Part shown: piece by piece, positions 256 to 2,446 of the stretch | Layout of the letters: each line of letters starts with the position of its first letter | Position numbering within the stretch: position 1 is the first letter of the stretch | Source of the DNA: Pyrenula massariospora | Lineage: Eukaryota > Ascomycota > Eurotiomycetes > Pyrenulales > Pyrenulaceae | Reading direction: 5' to 3' | Assembly (NCBI GenBank): GCA_021030905.1 | Contig: JAGFMI010000002.1 | Span: 2,294,001 to 2,358,000 of the forward strand | DNA: 64,000 bases | Translations under genes and position numbers: made by a program | Notes under the pieces: model-generated | What the model saw: the letters and a program-made list of their open reading frames with translations, nothing else | Told to the model about the DNA's origin: nothing | The model's database searches: none

Positions 256-693
256 CTATATATCCTGTTGGTCTGCAAGAAGGTCAAACACCGCATTGCC
301 AGTGGAGAGTGGTACAAGTTTAACTTCGAAATGGTATAAATCTCGAAAAATATCATAGATAGCTGTAGCATTCTCTTGCACCTCAGGGAATTCTCCTAGC
401 TCCCCAAACACCGAAAGAACCTTAACATTATTATAATTGGTCCGTCTCTCGTCGAGTAAGCGCGGTACCGCCTCGGTAATCTTACTACCAAGCTCTTGTA
501 GGGTTCGAAGTCGAGGGTTCGGTGGTTTCAGGTCAAAGTTGCATGTCGTTTGCGTTGAGGACAGCGACTTTGGAAATTTTTTTAGGGATAACAGATCAGC
601 CTGGACTCCTACATCCGACCGATGAGAGATGTTTCCGCTTTCTGTATCATGGCGTGACCCAATTATTTGGTCTTGTACAGGTGTCGATTCCAT
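256..693 (-). pseudogene. Truncated caspase-like (peptidase C14) protein fragment
   Basis: An ATG-initiated open frame of 145 codons reads towards the window edge. Residues from about 92 onward have the start of the caspase-like fold seen in many fungal C14 proteins: a hydrophobic strand (VKVLSVFGELG), then a helix with the pattern AIYDIFRDLYHFEV, then a short strand. The frame stops about 55 residues into that domain. The remaining antisense sequence down to base 1 contains no continuation, so the catalytic His and Cys are absent. The N-terminal 90 residues are polar and unassigned. The fragment lies between two hairpin repeats and is divergent from the gasdermin-like gene at 1349, 655 bp away. 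It could instead be the first exon of a gene running off the window through an intron I could not place. Confidence 0.45.
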
Positions 694-1348
694 GGTCGTT
701 TGAAGCGGTTTTAAGGCAGATCCCCGTCATTTTCTCGACCCCTGTAGTTGGAATTCTGATGCATTTTTCCTTGCCGATTATTGCAGTCAAAGTACACTGG
801 TGAAAAGTAGTAGCAACGAGAATTCGTCGCGACTGGCACTAAAAGTGCAGTAAAGACAGCTGCGGAGAACGACGAACATCGGATTCAGACGTTGCAAGGC
901 TATGCTGCACGATCACAAATTACCCTGGTCCTTTGAAAGAAGCTTGTGCCTGTGCTGCCACTCTAGGCAGAGTGACAGAAGTTTTGGCCCCCCCTCCCCA
1001 GGCTCTTCAGGCCGATTAATAGCCGGTAGGGGACCACGATTTCTGTCACCGTGCCTCGACTTGTCGCGTACCAGATGTCTCGCGCTGGAGAGCTTGGCAT
1101 GCAGCGGTCCGAAGGGCTAATCTACAAAATCCCCTTCTTGTCTGCACACAGAAGATAATCATCTTCTACACTAAATACACGGTACAGTCGGGTCTATTCA
1201 TTGCCTCCTAAGATCTGCGTGGAAGAGCCCTTGCCGTCTGACTAACTACGCCGGCCTTCCCGCTGTCCTTGATTCTTCACTTAGAACAAAGATTACGGGG
1301 GTAGTTGTTCATCTCAAATGCTTTATTTTCTGCTGGCGGACCTCATCC
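694..1348. other. Divergent intergenic region with hairpin copy 2
   Basis: This stretch lies between the start of the caspase-like fragment (minus strand) and the start of the gasdermin-like gene (plus strand). If both were transcribed it would hold both promoters. Apart from the hairpin repeat at 972-1049 I see no gene and no clear TATA box. Confidence 0.4.
972..1049. repeat. Hairpin repeat, copy 2
   Basis: The outer arms GTGACAGAA (972-980) and TTCTGTCAC (1041-1049) are perfect inverted complements. The inner part is C-rich on the left and G-rich on the right, extending the pairing. The loop resembles that of the hairpin at 64-127 and the orientation is the same. Confidence 0.6.
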
Positions 1349-2446
1349 ATGGCATATGAAGACAGGCACGACGTCTTATATCATGAGAGTTTCAAAAACA
1401 ATTCTGAGGGACACGCGCTCTTCAAACCTGTGTCAGCTGCAAAGCTGAAGCCGGACATGTGCGGCTACTATGATCACAACGGCGATTGGCAATGCATTAA
1501 GGACCTGACCGATCTCAATGCAACTACTTCCGGTGGATGGAAAACGCCTGGCGGTATAGAGACCAGTCTGGATCCAGATTCAGATGTCTGGGGAGCTGTA
1601 ATCTCAGACAGTGTCGTCATGTTTCCTATGAAACATAGTGTACATGCTGAGTGAGTCAATTGAACTCCGATCATTGGTTCTTAAACGTCTCCTTGTTATA
1701 TAACAGGCAATTCCGGATCAATTTGGCATGGCATTTGGAACGATGACAGTCCTGCGAATACTCTTTCGCGACTAACTTGTTCTGATATCGCTCATAGTAC
1801 ATCTGCGAGGGTTGGTTTTAGGATAAGTCACGAAAGCGAGGAAGATACCGGCGCCATCCTTGTTACTGCCAGCGACGTAACTGAAGAGCATATCTCTTCT
1901 TCGAGTTCCACAAAAGCGAAAGACTGGTTCGTCAATAATGCAGAACAAGTCTTGCAAAGACACCAGACGACCAAAAAGAAGGGAATTTTCGTAATTACGC
2001 AAACTTATCATGCCGAGCAGCGTGCCGTGGCTCTTCTCAGATCCAAAGAAGCATCGGTTTCATTCATTGTGAATGCCGAGCTGGAAGCTGTTGGCAAGAC
2101 CGCACCGGGAGCAAGTTGGTGGGATAGCCGGAAGGAGCGAGAGTGGCAGCTGCATAGCAACGTAAGTCGTAGCTGCTGCCATGGAGTCACGTTATCTTCC
2201 TCTCATCAACATATTCTAATACTCGAATAGGATGATGGGGTGGTTGTCTTTATGAGTGGCTGGTATTGGCGACCCAAATTGCTCTCGAAGAAGGCCAAAC
2301 CAACCGACGAAAGGCCAAAACAACAGAGATTCTTAGGTGAAGGCGACAAGAAGGGAACGCTAGATTTCCAATTTCTGTCGGATGACGAACACCTTGAAAC
2401 TATCAGATTGAGCGTGGAGAAAATAGGAGATTTTGATCAAGAGTGA
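1349..2446 (+). CDS. Gasdermin-like pore-forming protein (fungal RCD-1/HET-Q1 type), putative
   Basis: Three exons give about 309 aa: 1349-1650, 1750-2161 and 2231-2446. The first intron has donor GTGAGT at 1651. An acceptor at 1749 keeps frame; an alternative 1707 acceptor would need a different donor. The second intron is GTAAGT to ATAG. Near residues 30-52 an N-terminal strand/turn pattern (KPDMCGYYDHNGDWQCIKDL) matches the start of gasdermin N-domains. About residues 179-230 carry the strand-rich segment beginning GIFVITQTY, which in gasdermins precedes the membrane-inserting hairpin. A charged tail of about 55 residues follows WYWRPK, similar in size to the inhibitory tail cleaved from Podospora HET-Q1. 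There is no signal peptide and no constant transmembrane helix, as expected for a cytosolic pore former activated by a protease. A caspase-like fragment is the divergent neighbour. The family assignment rests on pattern recognition, not alignment; the gene model is firmer than the function. Confidence 0.55.

Follow-up and report, generated by a model that had tools for sequence, protein, structure and literature searches.

A putative diverged fungal gasdermin gene of Pyrenula massariospora without a recognised S8, CHAT or C14 protease gene beside it

According to two reviews (PMC10197012, PMC12881547), about 80% of the genes for fungal gasdermins (fGSDM) cluster with protease genes, S8 proteases lying within 10 kb of about 63% of them and CHAT proteases within 10 kb of about 19%; in Podospora, a gasdermin is activated by a TPR-bearing CHAT protease. 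Two other systems are described in PMC12881547. In Podospora anserina, the S8 protease HET-Q2 cleaves HET-Q1 and removes a piece of about 5 kDa from it. In Neurospora crassa, RCD-1-1 (257 amino acids) and RCD-1-2 (244 amino acids) are allelic variants that act jointly and without cleavage. The present study concerns a stretch of 64,000 nucleotides of the ascomycete Pyrenula massariospora (positions 2294001-2358000 of contig JAGFMI010000002.1, here C22), hereafter the window, and in particular a three-exon gene near its left end (Table 1). This gene is probably a diverged fGSDM.

Searched on its own, the 309-residue product gave no significant match in Pfam (the best row, MAM, was at chance level, E 0.12) or in the PDB (nitrite reductase, again at chance level, E 0.18), and nothing at E 0.001 in a set of 5.8 billion proteins, for which 1052 candidates were scored. 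The link to gasdermins was reached instead through a paralogue in the same genome. When the genome (37.8 Mb, 33 contigs) was searched with the product, five matches were obtained, namely its own three exons, a copy on contig C1 (C1:953087-953731; 27% identity, E 9.8e-14) and a weaker copy on contig C17 (C17:5393-5860; 23% identity, E 1.7e-10). The C17 copy lies near a contig end, has neither a recognisable first part nor an intron at the position shared by the other two, and, to judge from its sequence, looks like a relic.

Among 499 candidates, 19 relatives of the C1 gene reach E 0.01 or better; two of these relatives are named as Penicillium proteins. One relative from Penicillium angulare, P0010, matched the C1 gene, two of the window exons (Table 1) and, weakly, the C17 copy when it was searched back against the genome. 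A search with an alignment of the family (A1) added the relatives P0020 and P0021; over 136 residues, the latter and the window product are 57% identical. The second intron occupies the same position in the window gene (HSN/DDGVVVF) and in the C1 gene (EK/NDDGRVVF). None of the 19 relatives in the alignment A2 has a Pfam match better than E 0.05 in the copy of Pfam that was searched, and the family is absent from that copy. Sequence comparison establishes the homology of the window gene to this putative gasdermin-type family, as well as its gene structure.

The family is called fGSDM because of the neighbour of the C1 gene and because of fold and profile rankings. The C1 gene and a minus-strand open frame of at least 1344 amino acids (1362 in another search) meet tail to tail; this frame has a CHAT domain at its end (E 4.8e-39) and TPR matches below the cut-offs. 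The pair fits the published layout of a two-gene cluster of an fGSDM and a CHAT-TPR protease, as far as the predicted products go, whereas no CHAT match was found on the contig of the window gene. A hydrolase encoded near the C1 gene was also searched against the genome, with no result relevant here. For the fold predicted for P0010 at low confidence, the best 8 of 193 PDB rows in Foldseek and the best 15 entries in VIA were all gasdermins, among them bacterial, RCD-1, Trichoplax and vertebrate proteins; the model of exon 2 was too poor for searching. A family profile (A5) compared with 177,635 PDB sequences placed RCD-1-2 first (E 0.22), with the surroundings of the APGASWW motif aligned, and a bacterial gasdermin second (E 0.74), both weak, followed by an unrelated protein (E 0.83). 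Neither a narrower family profile nor the C1 protein alone, like the 309-residue product alone, found a gasdermin in the PDB. The fold and profile comparisons rank gasdermins first, none of them being significant alone, and a gasdermin N-domain fold of the window product is indicated indirectly and weakly through its relative P0010. The product had been called gasdermin-like in a preliminary description of the window made from its letters, and the CHAT-adjacent paralogue, the shared intron, the close relative P0021 and the two kinds of ranking all support this name. A match of the product itself to a domain model or a known structure did not materialise, although gasdermins came out on top for the low-confidence fold of its relative.

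Table 1. Features of the window discussed in the text (positions counted from the first base of the window)
Feature	Position	Strand	Description	Evidence
Gasdermin-like gene	1349..2446	+	three exons, 309-aa product
Exon 1	1349..1650	+	N-terminal part, GYYDHNGDW strand pair, start of first hairpin	frame open from first in-frame ATG; P0010 match at 1373-1624, E 1.7e-9, 33% identity
Intron 1 region	1651..1797	+	donor GTGAGT at 1651; acceptor 1749 (309 aa) or 1797 (293 aa)	listing of splice pairs that keep the frame
Exon 2 core	1798..2161	+	second hairpin strand, GAILVT strand, helix, GIFVITQTY strands, APGASWW motif	P0010 match at 1787-2155, E 1.2e-8, 27% identity; inside the 136 aa 57% identical to P0021
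Intron 2	2162..2230	+	GTAAGT...TAG	position common to C1 paralogue
Exon 3	2231..2446	+	last predicted pore-domain strand (DDGVVVFMSGWYWRP) and C-terminal tail of 56 residues, 6.5 kDa	aligned to DDRLVVFFAGLRFRS of P0010 and NDDGRVVFFGGLHFG of C1 paralogue
145-codon open frame	259..693	-	divergent from gasdermin-like gene; stop at 256-258
Palindromic repeat, MITE-like	51..136		past 3' end of 145-codon frame	inverted arms
Second MITE-like palindrome copy	962..1059		between 145-codon frame and gasdermin-like gene	inverted arms
Retropepsin-like frame	8085..9392	-	two DTG motifs	Asp_protease_2, E 1.7e-6
DUF6594 frame	10031..10654	+		Pfam

The genome was also searched for the three protease families, with models that ignore introns, so that the counts of places are lower bounds. 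Matches to PF00082 (S8) were found at at least 16 places, to PF12770 (CHAT) at at least 10, nine of them over the cut-off, and to PF00656 (C14) at at least five. None of these places is on C22. Hence, by these lower-bound searches, there is no S8, CHAT or C14 match within 10 kb of the window gene; a neighbour of these families is usual for fungal gasdermin genes but not obligatory. A literature search returned nothing relevant on fungal gasdermins without a protease. Elsewhere in the genome, C14 and CHAT matches lie close together, about 1-5 kb apart, at two places (C27:1282817-1286024 and C27:2115526-2126395).

The product ends in a tail of the size seen in fungal gasdermins, as had been described. 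When the end of the domain is set by alignment with the relatives, the tail after ...GWYWRP amounts to 56 residues and 6.5 kDa, which may be compared with the piece of about 5 kDa lost by HET-Q1. Because of this similarity in size, control by cleavage would seem likelier than the mode of RCD-1. The window product would resemble HET-Q1 in being a fungal, predicted pore former composed of a pore domain and a tail of only about 5-6 kDa, a likeness by description only; HET-Q1 is cut by an S8 protease, and no S8 match was found on the contig of the window gene. RCD-1 heads the PDB sequences ranked with the family profile and stands among the top folds, but the window product, with 293-309 amino acids, is longer, carries the extra tail and is known from a single allele.

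By analogy with HET-Q1 and other gasdermins, a mode of action can be potentially described as follows. About 250 residues of the product would make up the pore-forming domain, the short tail behind it would be inhibitory, and the full-length protein would most likely be inactive in the cytosol. A protease would take off the tail, and the freed domain would then insert its hairpins into the plasma membrane and oligomerise to a pore. The pore would kill the cell, as part of a defence or non-self response. Since no protease of the S8, CHAT or C14 families was found beside the gene, the activator may be encoded elsewhere or be of another type.

The three-exon model of the preliminary description proved sound in most respects. 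Splicing from the ATG at 1349, the earliest in frame and the start of MAYED..., with removal of 1651-1749 and 2162-2230 and a stop at 2446, regenerates the 309-residue product; the second intron agrees in position with that of the paralogue, and the exon frames are favoured by codon usage, as judged by a codon table built from only 12 long open reading frames (ORFs). The 3' end of intron 1 is unsettled, and this intron is the weak spot of the model. Within the ranges tried, 36 splice combinations are in frame. A product of 293 residues, obtained with the acceptor at 1797, is somewhat preferred, since codon scores are low across 1709-1797 and a branch-like CTAAC site (1772-1776) precedes this acceptor. 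The open frame of P0021 starts only within the corresponding region; therefore, it is suggested that intron 1 is common to P0021 and the window gene. An origin of the intron by duplication or from a dispersed repeat was considered and rejected by repeat comparison, the region being unique in the genome.

The motifs WG and [GTF]GA[ILV]L[ILV]T, whose spacing runs across the first hairpin, occur together in 17 of the 19 members of A2, and the other two lack one of them. Sixteen of the 17 have a spacing of 43 and one has 42. The spacing is 53 in the 309-residue model and 37, by count, in the 293-residue model, so the conserved spacing fits neither exactly. A 299-residue model (donor GTTTCC at 1621, acceptor 1749) restores a spacing of 43 by count, but it requires a poor donor.

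This irregularity bears on the best of the other explanations, by which the gene is a decaying gasdermin. Extra DNA near intron 1 would disrupt the first membrane hairpin, no functional protein would be made, and the small divergent frame of 145 codons on the left would be the debris of a lost partner. The hairpin spacing of 53 in the 309-residue model speaks for decay, and so does the absence of the strong donor with its nearest acceptor (1651/1706) from the in-frame combinations. Decay would also be consistent with the lack of S8, CHAT and C14 matches on the contig and with two palindromic repeats resembling miniature inverted-repeat transposable elements (MITEs), which flank the small frame on both sides; their arms surround GACAGAAGTCGTGGC, and matches to them occur at at least six other loci of the genome. 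However, all three exons are open and coding-like in codon usage, intron 2 is intact at a conserved position, the acceptor at 1797 with its CTAAC preserves the frame, and the frame of P0021 likewise begins only at the intron 1 region, as after an intron. Decay is regarded as unlikely, if the most credible of the alternatives.

The 145-codon frame has also been read differently. In the preliminary description it was the start of a caspase-like C14 protease, the former activator of the gasdermin, whose catalytic part had been lost or continued outside the window. The two genes are indeed divergent, with start codons 655 bp apart; the stretch NVKVLSVFGELGEFPEV looks, by eye, like the beginning of two caspase-like proteins encoded in the genome; and codon usage is better in this frame than in the other five, its score of 0.038 ranking at about the 90th percentile among 109 ORFs of similar size. 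The open frame is thus real, but its C14 identity found no footing in any model, structure or significant alignment. The genome yields no paralogue of it at E 0.001 and Pfam no match at E 1, and its PDB matches comprised no C14 protein and only two ribosomal L29 proteins, which were not significant. Against the two caspase-like proteins, a comparison resting on only two members of the family, hhalign gave a probability of 0.2% (E 0.37), and among 2000 shuffles 18% reached the alignment score of 25 and 46% that of 22, whereas aligning the two proteins with each other in this way gives 62. When the contig was extended by 20 kb to the left of the window, no catalytic histidine motif was found there, and to the right two such motifs occur out of context, beyond 51 kb; in a tblastn search of the scanned stretch with the two caspase-like proteins the best E was 0.31. 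The 20 kb to the left thus show no continuation of a catalytic part, the reading of the frame as a caspase is rejected for want of a match, and a C14 module at this locus is improbable.

It is less probable still that the product has the wider pore-former fold (MACPF/CDC-like) without being a gasdermin, or that it is an unrelated beta-rich protein, for gasdermins ranked first in three comparisons (Foldseek, VIA and the A5 profile) and the paralogue adjoins a CHAT protease gene. A cleavage-type fGSDM triggered by an activator from outside the S8, CHAT and C14 families, either an aspartic protease encoded nearby or the product of the 145-codon frame, is the least likely of all.

The candidate aspartic protease belongs to the wider neighbourhood of the gene. 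Ten ORFs of at least 190 amino acids within about 10 kb were scanned with Pfam, and the only protease-like product among them is the retropepsin-like one (Table 1); the remaining matches are a lactonase, an ankyrin-repeat protein and a DUF6594 protein. Four more ORFs that were scanned along with these ten are either shorter or more distant. Stretches related to the retropepsin-like frame lie on contigs C8, C31, C27 and C32. They do not occur on C1 or C17, where the gasdermin-like copies are, and an aspartic protease as a recurrent partner of these gasdermins was rejected. To the left of the window start, a lactonase gene lies at about 3-4 kb, an ankyrin-repeat gene at about 5-7 kb (L002:2961-4940, minus strand), and a HET-domain gene (E 3.3e-26) at about 13-15 kb (L003:4902-6902, plus strand).

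Overall, the window gene most likely encodes a diverged fungal cell-death executioner of an ordinary kind, and none of the usual proteases was found adjacent to it. The missing neighbour is not surprising, since about one in five fungal gasdermins likewise has no protease neighbour by the count given in the review (PMC10197012). It appears that one genome holds both a canonical gasdermin-CHAT pair, on C1, and a diverged gasdermin that none of the profile libraries searched picks up and beside which no usual protease gene was found. Such diverged members may serve as test cases for whether fungal gasdermins always require a dedicated, adjacent protease.
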